Virus record (IMG/VR): IMGVR_UViG_3300027963_000259
Coordinates: 1-28,562 of that record
DNA: 28,562 nt
Source: a virus
Strand: one strand, 5' to 3'
The number at the start of each line of letters is the position of its first letter. Positions within the stretch are counted from its first letter, which is position 1. This document shows, piece after piece, positions 1,223 through 27,556 of the stretch. The translations under genes and the position numbers were made by a program. Below the pieces are notes generated by a model. That model was not told the DNA's origin, searched no databases, and saw only the letters and a program-made list of their open reading frames with translations.

Positions 1223-1230
1223 TATTTATT
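1223..1230 (-). promoter_or_regulatory. T4-type late promoter box AATAAATA, overlapping the giant gene's stop codon
   Basis: On the minus strand the sequence reads CCTAAATAAATAAAG. The box contains the TAA stop of the giant gene (1228-1226) and ends 14 bases before the ATG at 1208. It matches the T4 late consensus TATAAATA at seven of eight positions and is identical to three other boxes in this window. It would let the structural and fibre genes be transcribed without reading through the 15.4-kb gene. Promoter activity is inferred. Confidence 0.55.
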
Positions 1231-4200
1231 TAGGTAAATCCACCTGTCTTACTTTTAGGAACCTAGCAATGTCAGTATTACTGTCTCTTAATGAAGAATT
1301 TTCGTTGTATTTGAACCAAACTTTTCCAGTCCTACGAACGATTACAACTAGATCACCTGCATTAGGTGCTTCAGTTAACCTCACTACGTCGCTATTTTCG
1401 TTGACACTAAATTCTGCTTCGAGTTGTTTATCTCCCGCTCCCTTGTAACTGTCTTGTCCCAGTGCTTGATCATATATAGTCATTGGTGCTTTTCTTAAAC
1501 GACGCCCTGCAACAAATACTTCGATCTCATCACATTGACCATAGTTGTATGGTATGCTTGGATAAGAAATAAGGTTTGCTACACCCGAGCCGGATCCAGT
1601 TCCGGTGGCAATAAATTTAGTTCCGACTGTGTTGCTGTAAGCACCAATCAATTTAAAATTAGTTGTACCAACTACTGCTATAGTATATTCTGTTCCAACA
1701 ACAAAGCTGCCAGCATTGATCGGAACAGCATTAGTTTCTCTATACCATTCTTTATAAATTGTACTGTCATCGTCGATGGTGCCAACTGTCGGAGTTGGGG
1801 TAAAATCTAAATCAAAAATCTGTGTAGAACCATCTCCATAATGTGTCTTTTTTATTTCTTTATCTGTGTATGGAACAGTTGTTGATTGTCCGATATCAAT
1901 AACCCTAGATCCCGCCGAAACATATTGATTTATCGAAGTACCTAGCGTACCACGACGTAGCTGTCTTAATATATTTCCGTCTTTAACAAAGTATTCGATA
2001 CGCTCACCGGCAATTTCAATAACACAAGGTATACCGAGTCTTGCATTAGTTAATCCTGCAGGATCATCGAGAACTGCCCCGTCTGCAACTTCTATCCTTG
2101 TATCAAAATAATTAAATTCTTTAGCTAAGAATGTTATCTTTTCTTTATCCAAAGTCTTATAATGATTCCTGTTTAACATATCTTTGAATATGTTATATCC
2201 ATAACTTGGACTTATAGTTTTATCGCTTGTTGTTACCACTTCGATGTAATCTTTACCTGTTAAGTTATCCGGTAATGTAACTCTTATCTGTCTACGATTA
2301 TCTAGTACAACGTAATCGAAATTTGGTGAAAGTAACTTTCTATTTAATCCAACAAACACACCGCTAGTATCCGATACAACCCTAGGTAGGTCTATTATTC
2401 CACTAGTATTAATAGCTGAATTTAGAGGATCGTACTTAGTAGTATCGTATCTTAATGAATCGTAACTAGTTTTAAATCTAAAGCCTACGTTTTCTGATTT
2501 AATTTTCAAGATATCGTGATTTGAGAATGTAGTTATCTGTAATATTTCTTTGTTAACGATATTATAAGATTTAGAAATAACTATCTTATCATTCTCGATC
2601 TTATAGTCGCTGTCTAAGAATATTTCAACTGTTATCTCATCACCGTCGATTGCAACACCTGCATTTAGTGTTATCGAAGAAAATGCCGAATCGAATCGGT
2701 ATTCAATCACCGGAGATAGTACAATACCATTTCGATAGACCTGTATGTCGGTTTGTTTTAGAAGATATGGCTCATATCTTAAATCTGGTATAAAATATAC
2801 AGATCCATCATATATAAAGTTTTCACAGTCGGGTGATCTTAAAAATTCCCCATCTACTATAACAAGTGCTGCATGAGATAATGGGCCCAATACCGATGGT
2901 ACTTGTTCTAAATCATATTCATACTGCCCAGCAACCATATTAGTGATCTGTAAATTCACTTTACTGAATTTTCTTATGTTTCCTTCGAGAATCATAACCT
3001 GTATTATTGAATTAAACGGTGGTGCTTGATCAAATTCAACTATTACATTACCTAAAGAAGTGTATGTGTCGTCGCTTTCTTTAAGAGTGTAATCTACCAT
3101 TATACCGTTAACTGTTATATAAGCAGATACATTTCTAGTTGAATCTTGAACTAGGTCATAATGATATCTTGCTGCTGTTAAGAATTCTGTAGTGCTTCCA
3201 TCGCCGATAAAATCTACTTTATCGAGTATATCATATGCTCCAGTATCTATTACAGTAATAGATACTCTAGCTCCGTATGCCGGAGCGTAATACATTTTTA
3301 CAGTTTTTTCATAATAATCTACATCAAAATCTGCAAGATTATTGTCAACTAGCACAATTACACCGTCATTACTTGTAGGTAACTTGTCAATCTTAAAGTC
3401 AGTTGTTACACTATCTCCGGTATAATCTGTATTGTAAACGTTTGGTCCTCCAGCATTTGGAAGAGTATAGATTTTCATATTAAGAGCATCAACTAGTTGC
3501 CCTTGTATTAATTCCTCAGGCCCATGACTAGTATCTGCAGTGACAAACCTATCTCCGTCAATTACTATTTCTTCTGCTAATACACCTTTTGCTGTAGCAT
3601 ATGGTAAATCTCCGCCGATCAAGAATGAGTCTAAAAGATTCCTGTCTGTCGGTAATACTGTACCATCACTAGTACTCTTACGGAATAATACTTCACTTCC
3701 AATGAATTGTAAATTCACTGGTAAAATATCTGGAAATGTGATAACTTTAGAGTGTCCGTCGCCAACAAATGAATCTATAAACACATCATCTGGGGCAGTC
3801 GATAATCCATTTGCTAATACTGTACTTCCGTCGTATTGACTATAGTATGGATCGTCTACACGTTTTCCATCTATATAGACATTTATAACTTCGCCAGCTG
3901 CTGGAGTATATGGTAAAGTAAACGATCTAGTACTTCCATCGATTCCAACTATATAGTCGTCATTACTAGTGACTGTTCCGTCCCATGTTGAAACATCCCA
4001 ATTTAAAACATCCCACCCACTGCTTACATCAAAATCTAAACTTACAATCGACACTCCACCGTAATCGACCCCTGTCATAAGTTGCCCTAGATCTTTACCA
4101 TACTGTCCTGCCGAAGGATCGTAAGCATAGTTGATTCTATCTGCTGCAGAATATAGTCGTATATTTTTATAATAACCTATCTTAATAGTTGACCCTGCTG

Positions 4201-7200
4201 CAGGTGCATCAGTAAACGTAATAGTACCTTCTAATGCATTGTAGGTATCGTGTAAGGCTCGTGATAGAGCTACAGAATATTGTACACCATATATTTCAAT
4301 ATCATCAACTGTGATAGTAATTTTATTTTTGCTAGCTTCGGGAGCATATGACAACTTGAAATCTACTTTTGTTCCAGTTCCTTTAAAAGTATCAACATAT
4401 TCAAAACTATCAACAGTGTATGAAGCAGTTATTCTATCAAACTTTATAATCGTTTTTAGAGTTCTTGCTTTTGTGTTACCGATAACGGCATATGCTTTTG
4501 CTCTCTTAGTTTCAACATCGCCGTTACCGCCACTGATGTAAATCTTTGGCGCCGATATATATCCGTATCCTGGACGATCGATTACGATTCTAGTTAATTT
4601 TCCATTAGATACATATGCTGTGGCTGCTGCAGGTATTTCTACGATGCCTGTTGTGCCGGTTGCAGTTCCTGTTGCTTGATCTACTGCAACAGGTGCTATA
4701 CCACCACCAGTTAGCGCATTGTTAATGCCAGGTTGTGCCGGATTACCGTAATAGGTTGTTCCTAACACATACGGAAACACAGGAATTTCTGTATCATCGA
4801 TTGTTGTAAAATAAGCATAAGTCCCGTTAGGATAATCTGGTGTAATACCAAATCTTCCGTTGTGTATATCTAGATCGCCAAGCCCGGTAAATTCATAATC
4901 CTGCACAAAGATTCCCATTGGAAACTTGCCAGTATCGGCAGCACCAGTAAGACTTCGATATGACGGACTCTTTAAATTAAATCCAGTTTTTAAAGCTGCA
5001 ACTCCGCTCGAAGACGAAGTTGGATCACTATATCCGTACGGTCCATAAACTGGATAACCATCTAGTGCAAAACCTAATATTTTAGAATGTCCATCTGGAT
5101 GTCTTAAACCGCCTTTTAGATAAGGTATCAACGACACTTCGGCTATACCTGTTGAGTTTACCGATCCTGCTGCATGTCCGGTACCATTTAACCATGCATT
5201 AGCAAAACTAAAATCATGATAATGATATTGTCCAGGGGGAGAAGCATGACCGCCTGCTGAATCCTCACCAAAATTATAACCAGCGTCTATGCCTTCTGAT
5301 GCAGCAGCATTATAATTAAATCCTGCCGGAGCAGCTGGCCATCCATTAGGCGAACCATTTGCTGCTGACATGTTAAACATCGAAACGCCATTTAACCAAT
5401 AACCAATTAATCCATAACCAACAGTAGTTTCTGATGCTGCAGGCTGATCTGTTCCTGCACGTAACGAGAATGTGTGATTGAATTCTTGAGGTGTAGGAGT
5501 ACTCATTGGTATCGAACTATCGTTATATTCTATTCCATAACTATGATAAGGTAATCCTGTAGCAGTTATGTTAATAGTACCGCTAGATATCGTCCATGAT
5601 GAAGATACTGATGTCATTCTTCCTAGCTGTGCTGCATCAGCTGCACCACTTATATCTGTACTTGAGGTTCCTGACAATGTAGCAACATCTGTTACTGTGG
5701 AGCTTGCGAATCCACCGGTTATAATAACTTTTGGAACACTTGTATAATCCATACCTTGATCATCGATAACAATAGATGTCAATTGATATGTATGATTTTT
5801 TGACCAACTCTTCCATGGATAATAATCAATTCTCGAAGAATCTTTAGTAGTTCTATCGATTCGATTTAAGAAATAATCATAATAAGGAGGTAAATCAAAG
5901 TCAGTCATTGCCTGACTTGCAGATTCTATGTAATCATACGAATCTACAAATTCTCTTATTTTAGATTTATAAGGTTTGACTTCTTCTATATAAGATTGAT
6001 AACTTGCTAATTCATCACTTTGGAAAGTAGCTCTTTGTTTTAAGGTTCCAACTATATGATTAATTTTTAAGAAGCTGGTCTTAAACAACCAATCTGTATA
6101 TAGCTGTTCACTCAATACATAATGTATGCTATTAAAGAAAGATCTTACATATTCTATCTTGAAGTCATCTACTAATATATCATCGCGTAGTGCGTTCAAT
6201 ATAATTCTTAATTCTTTAGTTGGTCCAGTATCATATAGATTTAAATCGTAACTAAATTTAGTATCGTACCCTAGGTCTTGATTTAGATTGTAAATTTTTG
6301 ATGAGAACTCAATAGTATCTGCTTGTTTACCTACAACTACATAATCGTTAGTAAAATCAGCACTGTATGTTAGATATCTTCTTTCTAACAATAACCACTT
6401 ACCGTAGCCTGCATCTTTAATTTTTACGATATCTCCCTTACGTACAGTAAGACCATTGAGATCAGCAGTTTTGTTGACTAGATGTTTTACATCTGAATCT
6501 AATCCATAACCTGTAGCATACCAATCTTTGTAAGACCAATATCGTGTAACATCATATGCCTGTGTTTTGGTCCTAGTCCATGCGCTTTTTATTGGATTCC
6601 ATATTTGAATGCTCCACCCGTTATTTGCGTCTTCGTCTGTATTAACTAAAACAGAAAATCCTCGTACTTCGAGCTTAGTATCGGAATCATATTCTCTACC
6701 ATTTTTAATTATTTCTGCTTTTATTATCATACCTTCTTTATCAATAACAGTAAGTATTTCTGCTTCTGATCCAGTTCCAATAATTTTTACGTTTGGACCA
6801 TACCAAGTTAATGGAGTTCCTTCTATGTCTTTGGTATAAGGCTTGTTACATACATAACCATATCCGGGTTCATCTATGAATATGTTTAATAATTTTCCAT
6901 CTACAACCTGCACAGATAGTTTAGCAGTTTTTAATTTCTCAGTACCTACGAATCTTAATTCATATAGAACATCAATAACCCTATCTATATCTCCCGAATT
7001 CAAAGTTGGAGACATTTCATTCATCTGTAACTTTTGTAAATTAACATTATCAACTACTTGATTAGTTGACAACACCGAATTTACATATTCGAAGAATTGT
7101 TTTAATGCTTCGAATCTATTAACAAACCAACTCTGTCTAGGACTATTAAGGTTGCCATATCTTTGTTTTTTGCTTAACTTAGTATCTGGAACTTGGCGTC

Positions 7201-10200
7201 CTAGTGAATCCGATCCTACTAAACTATCAAACCACTTTGATTCAATAGTCGATGGTATGATAGCACTAGCATCATTGTCTGCTACTAACGCATACTGTCT
7301 ATGTGTGATAAGATCAGTATTATCAATTTCATAAAATTCAAGATTTAAACTTACATCAGCGTTAATTAAACTATTTTTAACATTGTTTAATGACAAACTA
7401 TTTTTGTTAGTGGCCGCAACGTAACGATAACCCTGCGATTGAGGATCTAATATAAGTTTTGTAATTACTGCTCCGCTGATCTTTCTGTTTAGAACATTTG
7501 GAACAGTGTTTTTATACTTTACCCAATAGTAATAAAGAGTTGTCTTTGATCCACTAATAGGATCATATTTGAACTTACTGCTATATGTAAAGTTATCAGG
7601 ATCTTTTGGTAATCCACTTATACCCTGTGATAGTCCATCGGCTGTATCTGCTATTTCTGCCCAACGACCTGGTAATAGTGTTGTTTCAACCCATTCATAT
7701 ATTTCAATCATAGATCCTGGGAACAGACGTCCCCAATGTATATTCCTATAAGTTGAATCGCCTTGCTCATACCAGGTATACTTTAGAGTAGATAGATTCC
7801 ACCATAACTCTCCAACATGCTCGTCAGTCCAAGGATTAGTATGATCGATCGAAACACCCGTGTTTAATCCATATTCGTAAATCGCAGGATCATAATAAGT
7901 TTGATATTTGATCTCTTGCTCAGCCGGTGCAGGTATCTTACCTTTAGCAGGATCATAAAAATCTAGATTTGATATCAATTCACTCTTGGCCGTGTTATAG
8001 ATAAATGCTTTTTTAAATTTAGACACATCAACTAATGAATCTTGCGATGCTTTTATATTCCAACTTAACGTATCATAATCAAATATAAAGATTGATCCAT
8101 AACTGATGTTCCCTGTATGATTTGCAGGACTTCCAACGATCAAACTGCCGCTCATTAGCGTTAGAGATGCACCAAAATTGTCCAATGCTTCAAGTTCACT
8201 TGCTGCACTTAGTCTATCTCCGTATATAAACGTCTGATCAAACCTATTGTAAACAAATACAGATCCTGTATAAGGAGTTGTGTCATGGAATGTTGTAGTT
8301 TTTCCATCAAATGACGTTCCACGTAATACTGCGCTATTGGTATCTAATTCATAATTAACTGTCGACCCGTCACTAAAACTCAATCTTGCATTGTGCTTAT
8401 CAAAAGTAAGCGTAGTAACATTACTGCCACCCATTGCAGCAACAACTAATAGACGTTCATCGCTGCTTAAATTAATTTTTGATCCAAATCTTTCATTGTC
8501 TAGTACAGTTGGGGGTACGATTAATTGTATTAGTTGATAAACACTATCTGAACTATCTTCTCCTGCTATTTCAAAACAGTAAACCGATCCAACATTGCTT
8601 CCTTCGATGTCATCGTTTGGACAAGAAGCAAACAAGAAATTATTTGTTATCTTGATACTGTATCCAAACATATCAGTTTCACTGAGATAGCTATCACCAC
8701 CGACTTTGTTCGGAACTTTACCTGTTGCTATAGTGTGTCCGTCAATTATTTCTATTAATTCATATTCATGAATAGAATCTATACGATCAAACACATAAAC
8801 TGCGCCCGTAGCCAGGAACGGAGCAGAAACTGCTACACGGCTACCATCGACACTCGAAGAAATATCATATCCATACATGCTTCCTGCTGATGGACTATAG
8901 ATTGAATAGAAGGTACCAGTATTAGATCTAATATTAGTAAAATCTAACATTGGTTGATTGTTAAATCTCCAAGAATATGTTGATTGATTATCGATCGTCT
9001 TCCTAAATATCTGCACACGCCCTGTGGCATTTTGATAGTCCTTACAACCAACAAACAACCAGTGATCGGTACCATCATATGATAATGATACTTTACTTCC
9101 AAACTGTTCATTTGAGACTGGATCATTGGACGCCAATACTATTTCTCTAATGTATCTATTGCTCGAAGGATTATGTGTGTATACAACTACCATACCTTGG
9201 TTCATGTATCCACTACTATAACCTACACGTCTGGCTTCATATACGTAATCTAACTTCCAGTTTCCTGAAGTGCTTATATCTTGAGGGCCGTTTGCATTTT
9301 GTGAAACAAGATTCTCGTAAAAATTACCTTGGAATTTTACTACATCACCTGTTACATAAACGCCAGTTGGGCTATAATTTCCTAAAAAATAACTTTTAAC
9401 ATTACTTGTGCTCGGTGCACCAACAGCTAAAACACTACCATCAAAAGAAACGTCAATGCTAGTTCCAAATTTAATAAAACCTGTATCAGCAAAATTAGAT
9501 GGAGCACGTAAAATTTCGATAAAATTCCATTTACTAACATGATTAGGACGATTGTAAACTAAAACAGCTCCTTGATCATAATAGTTAATGGCACTTACAA
9601 ACATCCATTTTTCGTCACCGCTGAGCTTTATATCATATCCATATTGTTGATTGTTTTGTTTGATGTTTGGAGATAATTCACTTTCAGTAAAAGCATCTAT
9701 ATTCTCTAGTACTAACCATTTTCCTGATTTGTCACTATCTACCCACATCTTTTCGCCACGTATGTCTAAACGATTGTATCGTTTAGTCTGTATCGCTGCA
9801 GGAGTAGCAAATCTTGCAGATTTGATAGTATGCATCAATCCTTGTGTGCTATCTTCTTCTAACTTATAAAGAACTGAATTGAAAGTAAAGATTTCAACCA
9901 TTCTTCCGTAAACGTTCTGTACTTTATACGATCCGTCTAATGCATCAAGGTTAGTTAATGTAACTATGTCGTCCTCAGCAATATCTGGTGCTGCGCTGCA
10001 TTCTAAAGTAACGATATTACCGTCAATTGACCAATTAGTAACCGTGACTCCGGTATTGAAATATTCTAAAACATCCCAATCATTTGTAGCAGTAAATCCT
10101 AACCATATTTTATCTTTTTCTGCAAAGCGAGTAATGTCATAATTTAACAAAGTAGCTTCGTTAAACATGAGATGATTTACATCTTCATCTCTAACATAAC

Positions 10201-13200
10201 CTGCAACTGGATATTTGAATATTCCATAATCATTTTGAGAATGATCCAGCTTAAACATTTTAAACGGATTACCATCATAGCTAACTGGCTTTATTGTCAT
10301 CGATCTCGAAGATACATTGTAGATAGAAAGATCTGAAAAATCTTCGTTGTTTAATGTTAATACGATATCTTGAGGATTATGATGGAATTTAAGTTCATCT
10401 AACGGAAACTCTAGTTCAGTATAGGTATCTGATGCACCGTAGTCTCCTACTTTAAATGCCCATTCCTCTTTAACGTCTATTGTACTAAATCCGCTTGAAC
10501 GCAATGCATCGAATAATTTTGTAATGCTGTTATACGTTCCCTTTTCTTTGATAAATCCTTGATAGAATTTATATTGTGCAACATCGTCGATGATAATGTT
10601 TTCTAAATACTGTCTCTTCTGATATCCAATAAGATGTCTTGCTAGAACTTGTTGATCGGTGTCATAAGCACTAGCATCTAAACTATAAAAATCTCGGAAC
10701 TGTTCTATCCTATAATCAAAGTTTGGTATTAACCCAGAATCTGGAACAGAATTTATCTGCGTCCATAGATCGTAATTAAAATCATTTGCTCCTAAAATCT
10801 TATTAGCGGCTGTGAAATAATGATTTTTATATTTTACGATATCACCTATGTTATAATCAGTACTAGGCATCCATTCGTTTATCTTTACTTCATCATACAT
10901 AAATCCTGGAGTTTCAAACCCGCCCTTCCAGTCAGTAGTTTTGAATCCATACAACTTAACTCGACCTTGTCTGTAACCGGCAACTACATCATATACTACA
11001 TCATTAAAGACGCTAACATTATCAAGTAGTAATATATGTTCACGATATACTAAATTTGTTCTAATATGGAATATACCATCGCTAACTGTTGCTCCTGGTT
11101 TTAATGTAAATCCATTATCTGATCTATAAACATCTGCTGAACTTATGTTTAATGGTGTTCCATCAGCTTTGAGAATACTATAATCATAAAAATCTGAATC
11201 CATTTGATCAACTGATGCGTTTATTTTAGGAACAAACGTCAATGAATTTGCTGCTGGACTCAATGTTATTACTGCACCTTCTGACCAGTTCTGTAAAGTC
11301 CAAAACATAAATTCTTTAGCACTAGTTAACCAGTTCAACGGTGTTTCAAGTGCCTTGCTATAATCAGTAAACTCAAAACCAAGATCTTCTAATCTTTTCT
11401 GATATCCTAAAAAGAAATCTACCATTTCTTGCACGGTTTCATAAACAGTGCCGTATGGTATTCTAACAGATATATCATCAAATGTCGTACGACGATATGC
11501 ACTAACTCCGCCAACCGTGGGTAATTGTGCTAAAGGTGCCCATTTTTCAGCATCTACAGCAAAATCAGGCGACGATGTGTGTGCTATCTTAGCTCTATAA
11601 TACCTGTTATTGTCGGCTATGATTTGACCTTTAATGTAATATTTTGCTGACGTCCAATCAACGTACGATTCCGATATGCCACCGATAGATATGTTTATAT
11701 CTCTCTGGGTTGATCGTATTGGAAATATTTCAAAATAGTTCTTTTCAGTATCATACCCTTTTATTTTAAATCCGTTTCTTGCTAAGGTTTCTCTAATCCA
11801 AATACTATTATTAAAATCAGCGATGAATCTATTGGAAATATTTAAAGATGTATCATTATTACTGGTATGATTAACAGTACAACGATAGATATCATTTTGG
11901 AAAACTACTTTTTGATCTTTTCTATATTTTATACCAGATTGCCAAGCAGGATAATTAGTTCCAAGTTTTTCTACAATCACTCCACTATATGTAACAGTAT
12001 CAACTGGTTCGCTTTTATCATAGAATATCTTATAATTTTCTGTAGGTAAGAAAACTGTACCAGTTGCATTTGGGGTACGGCTATCTAGCAATACTTTTAT
12101 CTTATCTTTACTAGTAAATCCTCCCATTCTATGAGAAAGTTTAGCATTAAGCCCAGTTAATTGGGTTTTGTATTGATCAATGTTTACATACTTCTGCATA
12201 AAGATGTATTCTTCGATTATGTTAGCCAATCCTGAAGTAAAAGTTCTTGGTGAGTTTGGATTATTTTTATCTCCTATCACAACATCTGAAAAAATCAAAT
12301 CTGAAGGTCTAAAATTATCACCCGTTGGAGTATAATATATTTGATTAGCAAGATTTCTTTTTACAGTAAATCTATCCCACATCTTTGTTATAAATTCTGA
12401 TCCTCTAAGCAAACACACCACAACCATAACAGAATATGGATATTCGCTCGATCTGCGCCAGGCTGTTTCAACTGGAGCTTGATCACCGAAATCATAATTT
12501 TGTTTAGAAAGTATGAGAGAGAAATCCTGTGCTAGATTGCTATCCAGAGGACTGATTAGATTTCCGTCACCGTCGACAGGTAAATGCATACTCATCCCTG
12601 GGCGAGCATATCTTAGATCAATCCTTCTATTGTTAGGATCGTTAATCTTACCTGCTTCGATTGAATCCCACATGATTTTATTTTGATTAGTATACGGAGC
12701 TGCACCATATGTGCGCTCCCACCAATAGGGTTTTATACTATAACCTTGCATTTCCCAAGGATGCGTATGTGGGCGATCTGTATCATAGAAGTATTTGTAA
12801 ATGCCTCTCCAGTATCCGTATAAATTTTCTCTAGTTACTGGAGAAATAGAATTATTATAATTGTAAGTAAAACTCTCACCGTCAACCCAATAATCATTGC
12901 TAGCAAAATCCTGATCAGCAATGCTATTCCATCTTAAGAAATCAATCAACGTGATTTCGTTGATTTCTTCTTTGGTATAATCTCTACGACGATAATGTCC
13001 TCCGAGTACATCATGTATATTGAATAATGTATCATCATATGTAACGCGACAGGTATTATATATTCTCTTTTCGAGTTCAAGTAACAGTTGGTCACGAATG
13101 TCGCCATATGTTTTTATTATACTACCGTCATGCCCTTGTATTATTTCTGTAGGTTCACGATATGTATAATCGATCGAAATACCTGGAACAAATGCAGGAT

Positions 13201-16200
13201 AAAGTCCTAGCTTTGTTGGAGTAAACGGAACATAGCAACCATCGGTGCTAGCATAATCTCTGATCTTTATCTTATCTCCAAGTTCTAACGGATGTGTGAT
13301 TTGTACAAACGGCTCTATATCACTAAAGAAATATTCTTGTCCATAAACTAATTGTATATCGTTTAGATATACCAGTATTGATCTTTTATCCTGCGCTTGT
13401 GGATCAAAAATACTGTTTATTATAAAGTATGGCATCCTAGGATCAACTACTGTATAATCTCTATCACTAGATGCACCATAGGGAAACATGTCTGAAGAAT
13501 GGAAAGGAGAAGTATCTATATGTCTAGAATGAGAATATTTGTACATTATCTGATCAAATATCTCTGCTACAGTGCCACCATATGATGTAGTTTTAGCAAG
13601 ACGTAGAAACTCTTTCTTAAATTCTGAATATGATCTTGATGTCCACCTTAATGCTTTAACTATGTTTGCATGTCGGTCAGTTAACACGAAAGCAGAAAGA
13701 GGCATAGATCCTGCATGTTTTAGAAATCTTCTTCCATATGCTGAAACGTTACCTAGGACATTTAAATTACCCAATCCTGGAAAATTACCTCTATATTGAT
13801 CTAGATTTTCAACAATAGTATGAACGTGGTCAGTAACTTCGCCGAACGTAAAGTTTTCGATTACATTGTTAAGAGGATTGTTTTGCCAATGCAAAGGTAT
13901 CTCATAATAACCTTTTAAATTTTTATTCGATACTGATCTTACTTTATAAACAACTTTATCACCTGTTGCTAAAGCAGTTCCAAATTTCATATAAGACACA
14001 CTGTTAACTAATTGATAAGTTACGTCTGATCGCTTAATATTATTAACGTAGACCCGTATTTTTATATCCGAAATAGTGCCGCTGTCGTCGTAAACATCAA
14101 CCGGAACAAGATCAGTCGGTGCGGTAACTATTAGTATCCTCACTACTGCTTGTTCTAAATCTATATTAGTCCTTGTCCACCCGTTTGCAAAAACAAAATT
14201 ACCGTAATCATCATATTTTCTAACGAATCCTGTCTTTGAAGAAACTGTAGTAACTTCAGTATCATTTTTGTAAGTCCATGTTTGAGTTTGTATGTCAAAC
14301 TCAAACTGTATATCGCCTGTGTTGTTAATATTGAGATGAGATATTGGAAATCCTAGTTCTGTATCATTTGTTCCGGTTCCAATTTTATACCCAAATAATC
14401 TGTTTCCTGAAAATTTATTATTCGAATAAGTTGATTCATCTGAGAAACTAACTGTGTTCTCGTCAAAGAGATCAAATAACGGTGCTTGATTTACAGATAT
14501 TTTTTGTTGTGCTTTTTTCCAAGCATTGTTTTGGTAATAATAAGACGAGCCTCTATTCAAAGCACCATCAATAACATAAACTACTTCACCTTCTGCCGGG
14601 TCGGTGTCTGTAACTTCGACTAGATTTATCTGTTTAGTTGTAACTTGGTTTGCTATGTAAGCATCAAATGTACTTCTAAAAGCGATCTGTGCCTTGTTAA
14701 TAGTATATGTTCCAACACCCCCGTTGCCCGGATTTAAACTAACCTTGGCTATAACATTATAGATTCCAGAAGTCGTACTGAGAAAACTGAGTCCAGCCAT
14801 AGCATGTGCATAAGTGTCTGTAATTCTTATATTTGTTAATTTGTCGCCCGAGGATGACATGATGTAATATGTTGTACCAGCAGGATCATATCCAACAATT
14901 GAACCATATATCAGATTACCTTTAATAAAGATGCTCTCGCCCTGAATATAAGTGCCAGACGATACTTCCAATTCTCCGCCAGTTCCAACTATTTTTAATG
15001 AGGATATACTGCTACCGTTTGCTGTAATAATGGTATTCGCAACAGAAACATTTGATGAATTAATAAGGTGTCCAACAAGTATAGTTCCTGTAATCATCGA
15101 AGTTACTGTTAATGTTGTTCCGGATATAGATCCGATAAACTTTGCACTCTGTTCTGTAGATATATTTGTTACTTCAAATATTTTACCATTAACTAGCGGG
15201 TCAGTATCTGCTGTAAACAGAATTCGATGCCCAGGGACGATTGATACACCATCAATACTATATCCTGTGCTTCCTTCTATAACTGAAAAAACATCTGTAG
15301 TAAAAGTATCTACTAGATGAACATCTTTCTTTGCTATCCAGCCGTACTTGTGTAATTTAATATTGGAATCAAATTCAATAATAGGTCTAGAAGCTCTGAG
15401 GTTTTGATCGAGATTTGATACTCGCTTGTTTGCTCGTGCTGCTGTTTCAATTACCGAACGATGAAACCATCTATTATTTCTAGACCAAGTGTTTCTATCT
15501 GTAGAAGAACGATTGATTACGATATAATCTTTAGCTGTTGGATAGTTTAATGCGCTTTCCCATGGAAGAGAATCAAACGGTTGTTCGTCAAAAGGAACGT
15601 CAATATCTGAATTGTTAATAGCAGGAGATCGGATGTCGGCTTCTGAAACTAATTTTATTTTTTCTCCTACACCTTCTACATACCAATTTCCTTCTGCATA
15701 CATAGCAGGTGCAACTTGACCTATGAATTTTACCTTAAGGCCGTTTACAAACTGTATTCCGGTACTGCTTTTAAAATACTTTTTTCCAATTATTTCTTTT
15801 TCAACATCGAGCTTTGTAGCTTCAGATATATCACGTATGTCTATCATACCTACAGTATCGACATTGTTATTATCAATATAGTATAATAGCGCAGGAGTAC
15901 TGTCTGTAATTTCAAACTGTACTGTTCCTCTTTCTACTTTTTGTTGTGTAAGTCCTACGTTGTAAAAAAACGTATCACCAATAACTGGTTTTGTTTTTAT
16001 ACAAAACGGTTTACCGGGTGAATTAATACGGAATGTATATTTTAATCCTCTGTATAATGTTAATCGAGGATTTGATGTTAATCCGTCTGGAGTAAACACA
16101 TAAGAAATATTATCTCCTTGAGAAACTGAAGTTATATTATAAGATGATGTAGTAGATTCTAACTCTCCGTAAATGCTAATAGGATCAGGGCCACTCGGTA

Positions 16201-16657
16201 ACCAGTAATATTCTCTGAAGTTAACAAACTTATCCCAATCAATGTATGGATCCCATGCGTACGATTCAACTTTGTTTAGTTTACTATGATTTCCAACAGG
16301 TGCACCAAAGTATCTTAAAGTATTAATATAATCAATATAGTCAGTATACCATTCTACTTCTTTTGTTACTGGATTTTCATAAACATATGCTGGTTCTAAT
16401 TGATAATATTGTCGAGGAAATGACCCTTCGGTGACATAGTTATCACTATCAGAGTAGTTTGGAACGTCCTTGCGACCTATGTAGTCGTTGATTCGTGTTA
16501 GTTTTCCTGGTTGTATTAGGGGATCTAATGTACCTCCAAGGAATTTTTTATTTTGATCTGTGCGGAAATACCTAGGAAGATGATCTGCTGACGCTCTTTT
16601 GTTTAAAGCTGTTACAGATATAGGTATCCCGTTTTCATTTTGATCATTATTAGCCAT
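1226..16657 (-). CDS. gp7: Giant gp7-type baseplate wedge/fibre protein, 5,143 residues, multi-domain
   Basis: One uninterrupted frame of 15.4 kb follows gp6 by 19 bases, the place of gene 7 in T4 (T4 gp7 is 1,032 residues). The N-terminus has motifs I associate with large structural proteins of marine T4-like phages: WYTDYIDYINTLRYFGAPVG and DWDKFVNFREYYWLPSGP. A later landmark is DWLFKTSFLKINHI with EVKPYKSKIREFV (about 3515-3570). Recognisable inserts or modules by residue: cupredoxin-like 193-273; SGTTLTV-type 500-665; CBM5/12-like modules near 1567-1622, 1662-1711, 1925-1968 and 2425-2470; FG-GAP-type propeller 2335-2863; GYG repeats near 3627 and 4025 flanking a YHYH domain (3700-3975); fibre-like repeats 4085-5122. 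No signal peptide or membrane segment is seen. If it occupies the gp7 position it would join six wedges to the baseplate rim, with the modules exposed for host-surface binding; that role is inferred. The ribosome binding site is weak: GGAG lies 13 bases upstream and GGA seven bases upstream. Confidence 0.8.
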   Translation of the reverse strand: MANNDQNENGIPISVTALNKRASADHLPRYFRTDQNKKFLGGTLDPLIQPGKLTRINDYIGRKDVPNYSDSDNYVTEGSFPRQYYQLEPAYVYENPVTKEVEWYTDYIDYINTLRYFGAPVGNHSKLNKVESYAWDPYIDWDKFVNFREYYWLPSGPDPISIYGELESTTSSYNITSVSQGDNISYVFTPDGLTSNPRLTLYRGLKYTFRINSPGKPFCIKTKPVIGDTFFYNVGLTQQKVERGTVQFEITDSTPALLYYIDNNNVDTVGMIDIRDISEATKLDVEKEIIGKKYFKSSTGIQFVNGLKVKFIGQVAPAMYAEGNWYVEGVGEKIKLVSEADIRSPAINNSDIDVPFDEQPFDSLPWESALNYPTAKDYIVINRSSTDRNTWSRNNRWFHRSVIETAARANKRVSNLDQNLRASRPIIEFDSNIKLHKYGWIAKKDVHLVDTFTTDVFSVIEGSTGYSIDGVSIVPGHRILFTADTDPLVNGKIFEVTNISTEQSAKFIGSISGTTLTVTSMITGTILVGHLINSSNVSVANTIITANGSSISSLKIVGTGGELEVSSGTYIQGESIFIKGNLIYGSIVGYDPAGTTYYIMSSSGDKLTNIRITDTYAHAMAGLSFLSTTSGIYNVIAKVSLNPGNGGVGTYTINKAQIAFRSTFDAYIANQVTTKQINLVEVTDTDPAEGEVVYVIDGALNRGSSYYYQNNAWKKAQQKISVNQAPLFDLFDENTVSFSDESTYSNNKFSGNRLFGYKIGTGTNDTELGFPISHLNINNTGDIQFEFDIQTQTWTYKNDTEVTTVSSKTGFVRKYDDYGNFVFANGWTRTNIDLEQAVVRILIVTAPTDLVPVDVYDDSGTISDIKIRVYVNNIKRSDVTYQLVNSVSYMKFGTALATGDKVVYKVRSVSNKNLKGYYEIPLHWQNNPLNNVIENFTFGEVTDHVHTIVENLDQYRGNFPGLGNLNVLGNVSAYGRRFLKHAGSMPLSAFVLTDRHANIVKALRWTSRSYSEFKKEFLRLAKTTSYGGTVAEIFDQIMYKYSHSRHIDTSPFHSSDMFPYGASSDRDYTVVDPRMPYFIINSIFDPQAQDKRSILVYLNDIQLVYGQEYFFSDIEPFVQITHPLELGDKIKIRDYASTDGCYVPFTPTKLGLYPAFVPGISIDYTYREPTEIIQGHDGSIIKTYGDIRDQLLLELEKRIYNTCRVTYDDTLFNIHDVLGGHYRRRDYTKEEINEITLIDFLRWNSIADQDFASNDYWVDGESFTYNYNNSISPVTRENLYGYWRGIYKYFYDTDRPHTHPWEMQGYSIKPYWWERTYGAAPYTNQNKIMWDSIEAGKINDPNNRRIDLRYARPGMSMHLPVDGDGNLISPLDSNLAQDFSLILSKQNYDFGDQAPVETAWRRSSEYPYSVMVVVCLLRGSEFITKMWDRFTVKRNLANQIYYTPTGDNFRPSDLIFSDVVIGDKNNPNSPRTFTSGLANIIEEYIFMQKYVNIDQYKTQLTGLNAKLSHRMGGFTSKDKIKVLLDSRTPNATGTVFLPTENYKIFYDKSEPVDTVTYSGVIVEKLGTNYPAWQSGIKYRKDQKVVFQNDIYRCTVNHTSNNDTSLNISNRFIADFNNSIWIRETLARNGFKIKGYDTEKNYFEIFPIRSTQRDINISIGGISESYVDWTSAKYYIKGQIIADNNRYYRAKIAHTSSPDFAVDAEKWAPLAQLPTVGGVSAYRRTTFDDISVRIPYGTVYETVQEMVDFFLGYQKRLEDLGFEFTDYSKALETPLNWLTSAKEFMFWTLQNWSEGAVITLSPAANSLTFVPKINASVDQMDSDFYDYSILKADGTPLNISSADVYRSDNGFTLKPGATVSDGIFHIRTNLVYREHILLLDNVSVFNDVVYDVVAGYRQGRVKLYGFKTTDWKGGFETPGFMYDEVKINEWMPSTDYNIGDIVKYKNHYFTAANKILGANDFNYDLWTQINSVPDSGLIPNFDYRIEQFRDFYSLDASAYDTDQQVLARHLIGYQKRQYLENIIIDDVAQYKFYQGFIKEKGTYNSITKLFDALRSSGFSTIDVKEEWAFKVGDYGASDTYTELEFPLDELKFHHNPQDIVLTLNNEDFSDLSIYNVSSRSMTIKPVSYDGNPFKMFKLDHSQNDYGIFKYPVAGYVRDEDVNHLMFNEATLLNYDITRFAEKDKIWLGFTATNDWDVLEYFNTGVTVTNWSIDGNIVTLECSAAPDIAEDDIVTLTNLDALDGSYKVQNVYGRMVEIFTFNSVLYKLEEDSTQGLMHTIKSARFATPAAIQTKRYNRLDIRGEKMWVDSDKSGKWLVLENIDAFTESELSPNIKQNNQQYGYDIKLSGDEKWMFVSAINYYDQGAVLVYNRPNHVSKWNFIEILRAPSNFADTGFIKFGTSIDVSFDGSVLAVGAPSTSNVKSYFLGNYSPTGVYVTGDVVKFQGNFYENLVSQNANGPQDISTSGNWKLDYVYEARRVGYSSGYMNQGMVVVYTHNPSSNRYIREIVLASNDPVSNEQFGSKVSLSYDGTDHWLFVGCKDYQNATGRVQIFRKTIDNQSTYSWRFNNQPMLDFTNIRSNTGTFYSIYSPSAGSMYGYDISSSVDGSRVAVSAPFLATGAVYVFDRIDSIHEYELIEIIDGHTIATGKVPNKVGGDSYLSETDMFGYSIKITNNFLFASCPNDDIEGSNVGSVYCFEIAGEDSSDSVYQLIQLIVPPTVLDNERFGSKINLSSDERLLVVAAMGGSNVTTLTFDKHNARLSFSDGSTVNYELDTNSAVLRGTSFDGKTTTFHDTTPYTGSVFVYNRFDQTFIYGDRLSAASELEALDNFGASLTLMSGSLIVGSPANHTGNISYGSIFIFDYDTLSWNIKASQDSLVDVSKFKKAFIYNTAKSELISNLDFYDPAKGKIPAPAEQEIKYQTYYDPAIYEYGLNTGVSIDHTNPWTDEHVGELWWNLSTLKYTWYEQGDSTYRNIHWGRLFPGSMIEIYEWVETTLLPGRWAEIADTADGLSQGISGLPKDPDNFTYSSKFKYDPISGSKTTLYYYWVKYKNTVPNVLNRKISGAVITKLILDPQSQGYRYVAATNKNSLSLNNVKNSLINADVSLNLEFYEIDNTDLITHRQYALVADNDASAIIPSTIESKWFDSLVGSDSLGRQVPDTKLSKKQRYGNLNSPRQSWFVNRFEALKQFFEYVNSVLSTNQVVDNVNLQKLQMNEMSPTLNSGDIDRVIDVLYELRFVGTEKLKTAKLSVQVVDGKLLNIFIDEPGYGYVCNKPYTKDIEGTPLTWYGPNVKIIGTGSEAEILTVIDKEGMIIKAEIIKNGREYDSDTKLEVRGFSVLVNTDEDANNGWSIQIWNPIKSAWTRTKTQAYDVTRYWSYKDWYATGYGLDSDVKHLVNKTADLNGLTVRKGDIVKIKDAGYGKWLLLERRYLTYSADFTNDYVVVGKQADTIEFSSKIYNLNQDLGYDTKFSYDLNLYDTGPTKELRIILNALRDDILVDDFKIEYVRSFFNSIHYVLSEQLYTDWLFKTSFLKINHIVGTLKQRATFQSDELASYQSYIEEVKPYKSKIREFVDSYDYIESASQAMTDFDLPPYYDYFLNRIDRTTKDSSRIDYYPWKSWSKNHTYQLTSIVIDDQGMDYTSVPKVIITGGFASSTVTDVATLSGTSSTDISGAADAAQLGRMTSVSSSWTISSGTINITATGLPYHSYGIEYNDSSIPMSTPTPQEFNHTFSLRAGTDQPAASETTVGYGLIGYWLNGVSMFNMSAANGSPNGWPAAPAGFNYNAAASEGIDAGYNFGEDSAGGHASPPGQYHYHDFSFANAWLNGTGHAAGSVNSTGIAEVSLIPYLKGGLRHPDGHSKILGFALDGYPVYGPYGYSDPTSSSSGVAALKTGFNLKSPSYRSLTGAADTGKFPMGIFVQDYEFTGLGDLDIHNGRFGITPDYPNGTYAYFTTIDDTEIPVFPYVLGTTYYGNPAQPGINNALTGGGIAPVAVDQATGTATGTTGIVEIPAAATAYVSNGKLTRIVIDRPGYGYISAPKIYISGGNGDVETKRAKAYAVIGNTKARTLKTIIKFDRITASYTVDSFEYVDTFKGTGTKVDFKLSYAPEASKNKITITVDDIEIYGVQYSVALSRALHDTYNALEGTITFTDAPAAGSTIKIGYYKNIRLYSAADRINYAYDPSAGQYGKDLGQLMTGVDYGGVSIVSLDFDVSSGWDVLNWDVSTWDGTVTSNDDYIVGIDGSTRSFTLPYTPAAGEVINVYIDGKRVDDPYYSQYDGSTVLANGLSTAPDDVFIDSFVGDGHSKVITFPDILPVNLQFIGSEVLFRKSTSDGTVLPTDRNLLDSFLIGGDLPYATAKGVLAEEIVIDGDRFVTADTSHGPEELIQGQLVDALNMKIYTLPNAGGPNVYNTDYTGDSVTTDFKIDKLPTSNDGVIVLVDNNLADFDVDYYEKTVKMYYAPAYGARVSITVIDTGAYDILDKVDFIGDGSTTEFLTAARYHYDLVQDSTRNVSAYITVNGIMVDYTLKESDDTYTSLGNVIVEFDQAPPFNSIIQVMILEGNIRKFSKVNLQITNMVAGQYEYDLEQVPSVLGPLSHAALVIVDGEFLRSPDCENFIYDGSVYFIPDLRYEPYLLKQTDIQVYRNGIVLSPVIEYRFDSAFSSITLNAGVAIDGDEITVEIFLDSDYKIENDKIVISKSYNIVNKEILQITTFSNHDILKIKSENVGFRFKTSYDSLRYDTTKYDPLNSAINTSGIIDLPRVVSDTSGVFVGLNRKLLSPNFDYVVLDNRRQIRVTLPDNLTGKDYIEVVTTSDKTISPSYGYNIFKDMLNRNHYKTLDKEKITFLAKEFNYFDTRIEVADGAVLDDPAGLTNARLGIPCVIEIAGERIEYFVKDGNILRQLRRGTLGTSINQYVSAGSRVIDIGQSTTVPYTDKEIKKTHYGDGSTQIFDLDFTPTPTVGTIDDDSTIYKEWYRETNAVPINAGSFVVGTEYTIAVVGTTNFKLIGAYSNTVGTKFIATGTGSGSGVANLISYPSIPYNYGQCDEIEVFVAGRRLRKAPMTIYDQALGQDSYKGAGDKQLEAEFSVNENSDVVRLTEAPNAGDLVVIVRRTGKVWFKYNENSSLRDSNTDIARFLKVRQVDLPK
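1290..4405 (-). repeat. About seven diverged fibre-like beta repeats, C-terminal part of the giant protein
   Basis: At protein level the pattern is F-x-G-(D/T)-G-x-(T/S)-x-x-F-x-L, then V-x-V-(D/N)-G, then I-x-F-x-x-AP-x-x-G-x-x-I-x-V. Copies open at FKGTGTKVDFKL, VGIDGSTRSFTLPY, FVGDGHSKVITF, YTGDSVTTDFKI, FIGDGSTTEFL and YGDGSTQIFDLDF, with another diverged copy near AGQYEYDLEQVP. Many close with phrases such as TDAPAAGSTIKI, YAPAYGARVSITV, DQAPPFNSIIQV or TEAPNAGDLVVIV. They span residues about 4085-5122. Confidence 0.55.
4730..5550 (-). other. YHYH domain in the giant protein
   Basis: Residues about 3700-3975 contain the signature GQYHYHDFS (codons near 5215-5235), followed by LGFALDGYPVYGPYGYSDP, LDIHNGRFGITPDYPNGTYA and YFTTIDDTEIPVFPYVLG. 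This order matches the YHYH family, a domain of unknown function found in marine bacteria and phages. It lies between two GYG-type repeats. Confidence 0.75.
8070..9655 (-). other. Seven-blade FG-GAP-type beta-propeller in the giant protein
   Basis: Residues about 2335-2863 hold seven repeats, each opening with (F/Y)G and a short strand and usually closing with a V-x-(V/I)-(Y/F) strand: QYGYDIKLS, KFGTSIDVSFDGS, QFGSKVSLSYDGT, MYGYDISSSVDGS, MFGYSIKITN, RFGSKINLSSDE and NFGASLTLMSG. Most have a VGAP/VSAP/VGSP-type strand and end in forms such as AVLVYNR, AVYVFDR, SVYCFE, SVFVYNR or SIFIFDY. This fits the FG-GAP_2 type of repeat and the usual blade number of a closed propeller. Blade 2 (about 9220-9390) holds a CBM5/12-like module and blade 6 a shorter insertion. 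Confidence 0.6.
14660..15150 (-). other. SGTTLTV-type module inserted in the giant protein
   Basis: Residues about 500-665 contain IGSISGTTLTVTSMITGTI, VGHLINSSNVSVANTIITA and, later, GNGGVGTYTINKAQ. I know these phrases from small beta-rich modules scattered through phage tail proteins. They interrupt a gp7-like stretch: GHRILFTADTDPLVNGKIFE lies before them and VEVTDTDPAEGEVVYVIDGA after them. Confidence 0.45.
15838..16080 (-). other. Cupredoxin-like domain in the giant protein, copper ligands lost
   Basis: Residues about 193-273 read NPRLTLYRGLKYTF, GKPFCIKT, GTVQFEITDSTPALLYYIDN and VGMIDI. This follows the plan of plastocyanin-like domains found in phage and marine proteins (LTLYRG-x-x-YTF ... 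GHPFxIKT ... LYYxCxxHxxM-GGxIxI). The His of GHPF is Lys here, and the C-terminal Cys-His-Met ligand cluster is replaced by IDNNNVDTV. The fold is probably kept as a structural domain without copper. Confidence 0.5.
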
Positions 16658-16676: not shown

Positions 16677-19600
16677 TTAATAACTGATAGAACTCAATAT
16701 GTTAGTTGTATTCACTTCTTGTATCGATGTAGTTACTATGTAACCTGCCGTTTTCATCTTTGCTGCCGTTAGTGCTTCTATTATTTCAATATCACTAACA
16801 GTTGTACCACTGATAAAAATTTCATTCGGCGCTGAGGTAATCTGTTGTAAGCTACCATATACTTGATCATTATTTGAAGGTACGATAATGAATGTAGTAA
16901 TATATGGCATCAACTTGTTCATTACAAATGTTGACAATTCACTAAAATAGAACGTATCACCGAAATCCCAGTTATCTAATGCAAAGAATTGATTTATAGC
17001 CGATACGATTCTCGTCTTGATATCGTTTTCAGTAATAACTTGTTCTTTATTTTTTACAACTTTAAAAGATGCTTGAAGTGTTTTATCAGCTTGTGGTCCA
17101 AAAAGAACTTTGTATTTTACCGGATGATAGATTATCTCATCACTAATACTTTTAATCTTATCTAGATTAACTCCGTATGTTAATCTTAGATCTGTACTAC
17201 TCGGTGGCAATGGTTGTTCAGATATATCACCTCTTAAGAATTTTCTATATTCATTGTCATAGTTCTTTGTTAATAGATAGATATCCATTATGTTAGTTGA
17301 GCTAGGATCTATTCTCATAGTTGATTCGGCATTATGGATATAATGGAAATATAAATCATTACGACCAATGTTAGCATAGTAGTCTTGAGTTACAACTAAC
17401 CGTCCCAAAGACATATCTAATTTCTTAACTATATCATTTTGATAAAAATAGAATAATTGTCCATCTTTATATGATGTTAAATTTGTTACCTGTGTTTCAG
17501 ATTCTAATATTTTAAACATACCAGTATCGTTACTAATGTAACGATAGTCTTCTACATAGTTGTCTGTGATATATTTTTCAAAAAATACAAAACGAGATTG
17601 ATTGCTCGAAGATGGATCAACGATAATATCAAATTCTTCGGGATTATCAACTATTCCGTCGTCATTTGTGTCTGAGAATGTAACTTTTACAGCTTTACTA
17701 CTAGTATATCCGTCACTTTCTGCAGTATTTCCGATTATTTCCCAAGCATAATCTTTAACTAAACTGTTACTACTATTAGGTTTAGTATTAAATTTTAATA
17801 CAGATACTTTATCTTTTTGTACTAACCCGGTTGCTGAATCATATATCTTTCTAGATCCATCGAAGAAGAAACGATTCTCTTTGATAGATTCAAAATAATA
17901 TTCTAAACCTCTATAATCTACTTTATAAGTTTCACCGTCGGTAGTAAAAGAAATTACCCAGCTACTATCAAGTTTCTGCCCGGTGTTGTCTCCAGTTTTG
18001 CCTAAGCTCCAAGCAGACAATAGATTTAAATTTCTATCCTGTACTAAAGACCAAATTCTTAAAGTTGAATCGTATCTTAAACCAAAATTCCTATAATTGA
18101 ATATAGAATCAAGAACTTGAGATGTAACTGTACTTGAAAGATAACTTAAAAACTTAGGAATAATTTGTTTAACTATCGATCCGTCTGGAATAATGTCGTT
18201 AACTAATATTGGGCCTAATCCGGAACTTAGTTTTCCTGATCCATTACCTTTACCGTCACCGGTTACCGAAACTACTTTTACCCACATGCGGTCCGAAGTG
18301 GTCGACGACTCAGTGGTTACTAATGTTCCGTTTTTTGCAAAATAATATCCAGCTGGTGGAACTATCTTTAACAAACATCCTGGTTCAACGTATTTTAAAA
18401 TGCTACCTGTGTATATTCCAACACTAAACGGTAACTCATTATCTTTATCTGCGAGATAAGCAGTAGTTTCGTTGTACCCACTGGTTACCTGTTTAAAAAT
18501 AGGAGATATATCAGTTAATATTAGCTTATCATAATACGCATAATAAAAATCTCTCATCATAGATAGTTTAGTAAGTGGTTCTATCTTATTTTTTATTACA
18601 TTTTCAATATCTGTTAATGAATTAAATGTAAAATCAAAACGATGATGTATATTCTCTCTATAAAGTATACCGTCAGTACAGAACGCATTAGTTGAACTAT
18701 ACTTTCCCGAAGGATCTATTAGATCATAGTTACGACTGATACCACTAGCAGAACGGTTAACTGATTTAACCTTAGCTATACTCTGACTTATCGCAAGAGG
18801 AGCTAGATTATAATCTTCACCAGTAATCATTCTATCCTGTGTATAGTATGTCGCAGGTGCTCTTGTTTTAATATCTTGATTAGATTCAGTACTTGTTGCT
18901 GTGCTAACTGAAGATTTTAATGATACTACGAGTTTTAATTCTTCAGTGCTACCTGAAACTGTTAGATAAGGTACTGTTATCTGCACCCCTCTCAAATCTT
19001 TTGGATTTATAGTAAAGGTTGCACCAGCAGATGTTCGATAATAACATCTAAAAGATCCTCTTGGTAGGTTAGCAAATACACCATCACCGAATACTAAAGA
19101 TATTCCATCATTACTAGTAGTCTGAACACCGTATATGTTCTTTATCGTCTTATCGATACTGTTATAGATAACATTGTTTCCGGTAAGTGTTGGTACCTTC
19201 TTCCAAATAGTCGATTCATTACCTAGATTGTTTAGGCTGTATAACCAAACATCATCATTGTTAATATTAACATCATTGATATTAACTATTTGATTTGTAG
19301 TTGGGTTAGTTAATGAAAAATCTTGCTTTGAAAGTACCCCTTGTCTAAAATGCATAAACCATCCAGTGTTTGGACTTCCATATCCCTGTTGATCATCTCT
19401 ATAGATAATCGCTACACGATTAAAAGGCAATGGGGTATCTTCTTGTATAGCACTGTCCTTAATAACTGTGCTCATTACTTCGAATGAATATGACTTACCA
19501 TCTATAGTTTTATTAAATGGAAATACAGGTAAGTCACCGATCGCACTAGCGAGCCTATACTGTTCTGTATAAACACCACTTACCATATCATATGTTTGTG

Positions 19601-20169: not shown

Positions 20170-20610
20170 TTAAAGCAGGCCGTTACGTGAGTCAAAACCA
20201 AATTGTAAAGTTTCCTGTATGTTATAAGGAACATATTTCAACACAACTTCAACTTGTATGGCTTGTTCTTTTTGAGTTACAGTAATGTTAACTGGATTTG
20301 TTCGGGGATCATAGTTTACTATCCTAGTAACATCATTTACTATAAGCTCTTTGGCTTGTTCTGTCATTGGTTCGAACAACATTTCCCAAATAATTGTTCC
20401 AAATTCAGGATTTTCAAGTTTCTCACCTTTACGTATATGAAAATGATTGATAAGATCTTGTTTAATCAATGCCAAATCATAGAGTGTCGAATTAGATGCA
20501 GCAGTACTAACTGTGCTAAACCCACGATAATTCTTAGGAGAGAATCCAACATGCCTCTGATCAGTGTTTATCGGATTGATATTTAAATTGTTATAGCCCT
20601 GTGTTGACAT
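20170..20610 (-). CDS. gp25: Baseplate wedge protein gp25
   Basis: 146 residues, close to the T4 gp25 size (132). The conserved gp25 core is visible: LYDLALIKQDLINHFHIRKG followed by EKLENPEFGTIIWEMLFEP (about residues 43-81), then helix-strand elements ELIVNDVTRIVNYDPR and VEVVLKYVPYN. gp25-family proteins occur in all contractile injection systems, where they belong to the inner wedge core and contact gp6, gp53 and the first sheath ring. The first 30 residues are a polar leader. It has its own late promoter box and a GAGAG ribosome binding site six bases before the ATG. Confidence 0.9.
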   Translation of the reverse strand: MSTQGYNNLNINPINTDQRHVGFSPKNYRGFSTVSTAASNSTLYDLALIKQDLINHFHIRKGEKLENPEFGTIIWEMLFEPMTEQAKELIVNDVTRIVNYDPRTNPVNITVTQKEQAIQVEVVLKYVPYNIQETLQFGFDSRNGLL

Positions 20611-25783: not shown

Positions 25784-26086
25784 TTATGTTAATCCTAATT
25801 TTGCTAATAAATTACTTCTCTTTGGAAGTTTGATCGTGATACCTGCACGGAAATCATAGATAGGATCCGATATTATATCTACATTACGCTGTGAAAATAC
25901 CCACCAGAGCCTCGGTGTTCCATATAAGTCATAGGCTAACAGATCTGGTCTATAGTTATACTGTGGTTTAATCGTATATTCAAAGTCATCAGCTGCTGCT
26001 GGTACCGGTCTGGGTATCCATATATCCAGATACAATCTGTTTTGCGAAGTTTCAAACCAGGGGCTTGAAGATGTATATCTAGCCAT
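25784..26086 (-). CDS. gp53: Baseplate wedge protein gp53
   Basis: A 100-residue protein with the compact gp53-type core: DFEYTIKPQYNYRPDLLAYD, then LYGTPRLWWVFSQRN and DPIYDFRAGITIKLP. T4 gp53 is about 196 residues; this shorter form keeps the part that resembles LysM-like gp53 cores. In T4, gp53 clamps neighbouring wedges together around the hub. The ATG overlaps the stop of the cap gene (TAATG), with an AAAGGA ribosome binding site inside the end of that gene, so coupled translation is likely. The hub gene starts four bases after its stop. Confidence 0.8.
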   Translation of the reverse strand: MARYTSSSPWFETSQNRLYLDIWIPRPVPAAADDFEYTIKPQYNYRPDLLAYDLYGTPRLWWVFSQRNVDIISDPIYDFRAGITIKLPKRSNLLAKLGLT

Positions 26087-27550: not shown

Positions 27551-27556
27551 CTATTG

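Follow-up and report, generated by a model that had tools for sequence, protein, structure and literature searches.

The stretch of viral DNA analyzed here (the window, 28,562 bases) is dominated by one gene. On its minus strand, positions 1226 to 16657 form a single uninterrupted ORF, ATG to TAA, that encodes a protein of 5143 amino acids (aa) and 576.8 kDa. The ORF takes up 54% of the window, and its product is 4.98 times as long as T4 gp7 (1032 aa), just as an initial, sequence-only reading had estimated (a single open frame about five times T4 gp7, filling over half of the window). With a probability of roughly 0.68, this is a giant baseplate protein of a jumbo myovirus, of the family PHROG 10938, that would occupy the gp7 slot as a scaffold outside the gp6/gp25/gp53 core, offer fiber attachment, and carry peripheral modules. 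The assignment of the whole ORF to the PHROG 10938 family of giant baseplate or virion structural proteins draws on the ORF call, the PHROG match, and the selection seen against another contig, L013. A BLASTP search of the protein against itself, looking for internal duplication, gave no self-hits.

PHROG 10938, annotated "virion structural protein" and 3324 positions long, matches nearly every 600-aa piece from aa 1 to about 3700, with per-segment E values down to 6e-63. By these profile matches, the window protein is a member of a catalogued, widespread family of RaK2-like and other jumbo phages. A tblastn search with the first 1000 aa matched Phosso, Atu_ph07, the PA5oct group, the RaK2 group, Vibrio 2.275.O, and SCTP-2. 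By BLASTP, the chassis of the protein is collinear with 10 phages, including Phosso, Atu_ph07, PA5oct, RaK2, 121Q, GAP32, XaC1, SCTP-2, and Vibrio 2.275.O. The jumbo-phage homologues are 3323 to 4555 aa long, share 22 to 39% identity with the window protein, and adjoin a large upstream gene that is annotated in most as a gp6-like wedge protein. A scan of IMG/VR with the single sequence recovers only the near-identical L013; the alignment-based scan that was needed to reach the relatives finds at least 597 contigs encoding them. Among the matches listed, complete IMG/VR relatives measure 4046 to 5552 aa and full-length members of the family as a whole span 3.3 to 5.55 kaa, so 5143 aa is an ordinary size for PHROG 10938.

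Mass spectrometry has detected homologues in virions, namely phAPEC6 gp245 (381.9 kDa, 17 peptides, 7.6% coverage; PMC7247149) and CBB_236 (21 peptides, 7.72% coverage; PMC5259590), and the database record of PA5oct gp355 carries the note ESI-MS/MS. The homology of the first two is taken from their place beside the wedge gene and, for phAPEC6, also from size. Virion presence is known through these homologues, which mass spectrometry places in the particle rather than in any one part of it, and a coverage of 7 to 8% fits an intact and a processed chain alike.

What surrounds the giant gene? The minus-strand order is a structural gene, gp53, another structural gene, a gp5-like hub gene, gp25, gp6, the giant ORF, and two more genes. 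gp53 (25784 to 26086) was identified by PF11246 and PHROG 7145, the gp5-like hub protein (20647 to 23169) by PHROG 13211 (E 2e-43) and DUF2345, gp25 (20170 to 20610) by PHROGs 261 and 43, and the baseplate wedge protein gp6 (16677 to 20117), directly upstream of the giant gene, by PHROG 10646 (E 2e-297) and PHROG 219 (E 2e-21). Among the matches listed, gp25 and then gp6 precede the giant gene in every one of the 71 loci that include 3 kb or more of upstream sequence, with gp6 immediately adjacent in 71 of 71 and a median gap of 30 bases. The "gp7-position" label of the sequence-only reading is therefore supported. As to the other neighbors, the hub protein, whose body is of the OB/DUF2345 type, has no recognized T4-type lysozyme domain; in its place there is a weak match to an SLT transglycosylase at the C terminus (E 0.0017, under the Pfam cutoff). 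A gp55-type late sigma factor (27554 to 28393, plus strand) is divergent from the baseplate cluster, as it is in RaK2-like phages. The downstream gene, P0009 (546 to 1220), of unknown function, follows the giant gene in 11 of 17 complete relatives; PHROG 11259 is its sole match, with no gp8 by PHROG. PF11649 has no match in the window or in any control genome.

Is the giant protein, then, a form of gp7? The sequence-only reading had seen stretches of a gp7-like scaffold in it, and these could not be recovered. hhalign comparison of 14 segment profiles with six T4-type gp7 proteins gave probabilities of 0.0 to 1.3%, the window protein matched no gp7 model among the PHROGs, hmmsearch stayed at chance level, and the protein showed no resemblance, in sequence or among the folds listed for two partial models, to gp7 or any wedge-core partner. 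The chosen reference, "marine T4-like gp7," is itself unsound, because cyanomyophages and pelagimyophages are reported to lack T4 gp7, with VrlC as the proposed substitute (PMC7029224). Homology to VrlC was considered and rejected (hhalign probability below 1%), as was homology to the 6198-aa giant of S-ShM2, where profile comparison found none beyond small modules. The gp7 model, PHROG 964, matches T4 and V09 and none of the nine jumbo genomes carrying PHROG 10938; PHROG 10938 is found in those nine and is absent from T4, V09, and S-ShM2, a mutual exclusion that is read from sampled genomes, the window being a 28.6-kb fragment. Because all nine genomes with the family are without gp7, the giant protein probably fills the gp7 slot. 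The best reading of these comparisons is that it is gp7 by position and not by sequence, either unrelated or diverged beyond recognition.

A true T4 gp7 orthologue, changed past recognition and enlarged by domain accretion, is unlikely, though it is the strongest of the alternatives. It accounts for the position directly after gp6 and for the mutual exclusion of PHROG 964 and PHROG 10938 in the tested genomes. Moreover, giant growth of a gp7-like protein appears possible elsewhere: the S-ShM2 giant still matches T4 gp7 over a short stretch, residues 729 to 758. Against orthology stand the hhalign values, uniformly negligible across all segments, and the chassis, which is unrelated in sequence to the S-ShM2 giant except for small mobile modules. 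For scale, structural proteins of S-ShM2 and S-WAM1 reach 6198 aa and 6737 aa (L132:11319-29915 and L131:1-11516), with that of S-ShM2 encoded directly after gp6.

Less probable again, and decidedly so, is that the gene encodes a tail fiber, tail-side appendage, or whisker protein that lies beside gp6 by chance. It does carry fiber-type modules (T7-gp17-N-like repeats, CBM5/12, FG-GAP, and YHYH), and the RaK2-like phages CBB and phAPEC6 bear hair-like appendages to which no protein has been assigned. However, in RaK2-like proteins the chassis persists at about 3300 aa with almost no such modules and is still encoded directly after gp6, and the aquatic loci keep that position without exception (71 of 71, among the matches listed).

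The protein of the preferred reading, a giant baseplate scaffold, was described early on as a chassis with inserted modules. When relatives were aligned, the comparison that the sequence-only reading had itself proposed, whole modules were indeed gained and lost at sharp boundaries. Among the matches listed, 90 relatives cover the window protein highly except for a few stretches, and inserts were called from the lengths between anchor columns of the aligned relatives. Chassis segment 1 (aa 1 to 160; 16178 to 16657, this and all following features being on the minus strand) is kept in sequence alignments with relatives, including those in RaK2-like phages. It is followed by a cupredoxin-like block (aa ~161 to 300; 15758 to 16177), present in nearly all aquatic relatives among the matches listed and absent in RaK2-like phages. 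The next module, the SGTTLTV-type insert of about 170 aa (aa ~497 to 674; 14636 to 15169), marks an insertion hot spot: the site holds 179 residues in the window protein, against a median of 9 over 66 relatives, and when empty it forms a short hairpin. In L014 the site is filled by a different insert of ~100 aa; L053, L086, and L089 have in common a third of ~95 aa, and that of PA5oct is ~280 aa. By sequence comparison, one loop holds four unrelated inserts across phages, and insertion sites are reused. The SGTTLTV block itself has no family match and no copy elsewhere in relatives at E 0.01.

Beyond the chassis core (aa 686 to 1568; 11954 to 14602), delimited by alignments A1 and A3 and an AlphaFold2 model, come four CBM5/12-like copies. 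Copy 1 (aa 1572 to 1602; 11852 to 11944) is an extra copy, present in the window protein and L014 in comparison with most relatives, and lies at a site (aa ~1553 to 1629) of 76 residues versus 15 in relatives. Copies 2 (aa 1667 to 1709; 11531 to 11659) and 3 (aa 1928 to 1967; 10757 to 10876) are conserved in nearly all aquatic relatives among the matches listed and absent from RaK2-like proteins, and copy 4 (aa 2428 to 2462; 9272 to 9376) was found by sequence profile. The FG-GAP repeat region (aa ~2300 to 2860; 8078 to 9760) varies in length more than any other stretch of the family, the interval corresponding to aa 2230 to 2860 measuring 451 to 1411 aa in aquatic relatives. A further chassis segment (aa 2866 to 3643; 5729 to 8062), defined by alignment A4 and a relative's model, has at its end a pair of helices and the first of two GY beta-repeats. 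Within the equivalent of aa 2862 to 4270, one relative (L268:6001-10653) has ~500 extra residues, a candidate insert.

How many of these modules are what they were first taken for? Three of the five proposed kinds are recognized by Pfam: CBM_5_12 (PF02839; E 1e-13 and 1e-8, 51.2 and 35.1 bits versus a cutoff of 26.2), FG-GAP_2 (PF14312; E 1e-17, 64.1 bits versus 23), and YHYH (PF14240; E 7e-36, 124.5 bits versus 25). Neither Pfam nor the PDB sequences gave a significant match for the cupredoxin-like block. The block does match a P-SSM2 domain (E 4e-23) with an H...C...H...M ligand pattern, and the copper ligands (His, Cys, His, and Met) are present in the P-SSM2 and DSL-LC01 homologues. They are missing from the window block and from the chassis relatives shown in the alignment, and because of this loss a redox or copper role appears unlikely. 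The CBM5/12-like domains may be sugar binding; in phages, folds of this type may also be purely structural. The word "inserted" likewise applies to only some of the modules. Judged by the alignments with aquatic relatives, three of them are genuine presence/absence inserts, namely the SGTTLTV block, CBM copy 1, and YHYH (~356 aa). The FG-GAP region is shared, in highly variable form, as are CBM copies 2 and 3 and the cupredoxin-like block. As kinds, then, cupredoxin-like, CBM5/12, and FG-GAP modules look largely like features of the clade, and SGTTLTV and YHYH modules like recent inserts.

The YHYH insert (aa ~3645 to 4016; 4610 to 5725) measures 373 aa in the window protein versus a median of 17 (11 to 20) in 51 relatives. 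It splits the tandem pair of GY beta-repeats of the chassis (aa 3626 to 3660 and 4022 to 4052; 4502 to 5782), which are ~40 aa long with the pattern GxGYxxxPxVxIxG; the S-ShM2 giant has many copies of this repeat, which also occurs in S-ShM2 gp8. The YHYH domain is a predicted metal-dependent hydrolase (Iyer et al. 2021, PMC7824862), and in the alignment the window module keeps the YHYH, HPDGHS, and ALDGYPVYGPYG residues, with the conserved histidines and aspartate present. Among the matches listed, the window's YHYH site is empty in 82 of 83 spanning IMG/VR chassis ORFs. The exception, L146, is also the closest relative over the YHYH-flanking chassis (60%, and 64% in the core, among the matches listed); L014, at 62% in the core, ends before the site. 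A second YHYH site, immediately ahead of the chassis segment beyond the FG-GAP region, is occupied in four loci and one near-duplicate (L156, L161/L162, L164, and L169). An early impression from a first set of relatives, that YHYH is unique to the window protein, was overturned by L146 and five other chassis ORFs. The closest YHYH sequence itself is in L145, at 58% versus 53% for L146 (among the matches listed), in an ORF in which no chassis segment was detected. Several hundred cyanophage records likewise contain YHYH, in one case within an S-ShM2 protein annotated as gp7. The distribution over sites, the closer match in L145 than in L146, and the cyanophage occurrences together indicate that the YHYH module has moved between proteins and sites.

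Could so large a frame be spurious? The independent contig L013 is 98.7% identical to the window at the nucleotide level over 15,469 bases, and in it the giant frame is open across all 3718 codons covered. Between the two, pN/pS is 0.048 over the giant ORF and 0.04 within the SGTTLTV insert. The frame is therefore real and under strong purifying selection. That faulty assembly or a chimera produced the ORF or its modules, as might be suspected of a single metagenomic contig with a YHYH domain at a site where nearly all relatives have none, is ruled out for aa 1 to 3718 by L013, with its identical frame, SGTTLTV insert, and beginning of the YHYH insert, and, where the YHYH site is concerned, by L146, which leaves this explanation negligible.

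Structure prediction adds detail. AlphaFold2 modeled aa 990 to 2186, with 57 relatives, at a mean pLDDT of 79.4 and a pTM of 0.69, and a relative's segment equivalent to aa 2862 to 4270 at a pLDDT of 75.8 and a pTM of 0.42. The best viral predicted-structure matches to the chassis core belong to the same family, and two are named "YHYH domain containing protein." The core model is also matched by a 750-aa viral protein, BFVD A0A2Z5HGI1 (TM 0.73 on its own length, 18% identity), which may represent the chassis in minimal form. Foldseek found no PDB match at E 0.001 for either partial model; the fold matches listed in a second look at the PDB with both models include no gp7 chain, which does not exclude a gp7 fold. 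Searched against PDB sequences, the core and further segments gave only CBM5/12 matches and one weak tailspike match. A small beta domain at aa ~1061 to 1137 resembles the T7 gp17-N/TSP4/T4 gp6 domain (VIA-align Z 8.5), as does the relative's equivalent of aa ~4089 to 4165, the first C-terminal repeat (Z 10.2). Fold neighbors of these beta domains are T5/DT57C neck proteins, TSP4, the T7 gp17 N terminus, and T4 gp6 residues 171 to 275, with Z scores of 6.9 to 10.2, those under 8 being weak by the tool's guide. A home-built HMM finds nine T7-gp17-N-like repeats in the window protein, up to seven of them in the C-terminal part (aa 4089 to 5107; 1337 to 4393), where they start at 4089, 4240, 4412, 4483, 4612, 4762, and 5079, the last two being marginal. 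The model of CBM copy 2 resembles the CBM of a chitin oligosaccharide deacetylase (Z 7.0, rmsd 1.3), and that of copy 3 the Milano baseplate receptor-binding complex 8fqc_P1 (Z 8.0, rmsd 1.3).

How might such a protein work? The chassis would be anchored to the gp6 ring and lie outside the wedge core of gp6, gp25, and gp53. The C-terminal repeats may be attachment points for tail fibers, because they resemble domains that hold fibers or wedge parts. The CBM5/12, FG-GAP, and YHYH modules, sugar binding or enzyme-like, would face the cell surface, with YHYH as a putative metal-dependent hydrolase on the baseplate. By gaining and losing whole domains, fixed loops would change the contacts of the baseplate and leave wedge assembly undisturbed. 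At an assumed six copies, one per wedge as the sequence-only reading supposed in putting the total at roughly 3.4 MDa, the protein would contribute 3.46 MDa. A bolder proposal, advanced only tentatively, is that in jumbo phages an unrelated giant scaffold took the place of T4-type gp7, and that its fixed loops take up whole adhesin or hydrolase domains time and again. If true, the body of the baseplate, beside the fibers, is an evolvable host-interaction surface through family-wide domain swapping. The family is already in public databases and detected in virions, and the window protein is one ordinary-sized member. Exclusion of gp7 in the sampled genomes, the place after gp6, and whole-domain variation yield a concrete hypothesis for how the baseplates of RaK2-like and aquatic jumbo phages are built and retuned, and the analysis gives module boundaries usable for tests.

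Finally, how does the window protein compare with known systems? T4 gp7 (PHROG 964) likewise follows gp6, but it is only 1032 aa long, has no detectable similarity, and lacks such inserted modules; its slot directly precedes gp8, whereas P0009 is not gp8 by PHROG. S-ShM2_093 (6198 aa, PHROG 701) is a giant directly after gp6, as in the window, with a chassis that is unrelated by profile; it and VrlC have YHYH and GY repeats in common with the window protein, as small modules. The YHYH module of the window protein matches PF14240, conserved H/D motif included, and differs by its insertion within the chassis beta-repeat of a giant protein. Two UniProt proteins from uncultured Caudovirales phages, A0A6J5T0D1 and A0A6J5L0K2, both annotated YHYH, match the chassis core by predicted structure (E 3e-75 and 4e-70) at 30 to 36% identity. 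The RaK2-like members, RaK2 gp465/ORF070, 121Q gp582, GAP32_230, CBB_236, and phAPEC6 gp245, share the collinear chassis (aligned for RaK2, 121Q, and GAP32), the place after gp6, and virion homologues, but measure 3323 to 3341 aa in the members measured and lack CBM5/12, YHYH, and, at the homologous site, the cupredoxin-like block. The related structural proteins of Atu_ph07 (gp180, 4449 aa), Phosso (4555 aa), and PA5oct (gp355, 3857 aa) differ from the window protein in having ~1.5 kaa at the FG-GAP site (Atu_ph07 and Phosso) or ~280 aa at the SGTTLTV site (PA5oct), and share with it the chassis, one CBM5/12 at a matching site, and the place after gp6.
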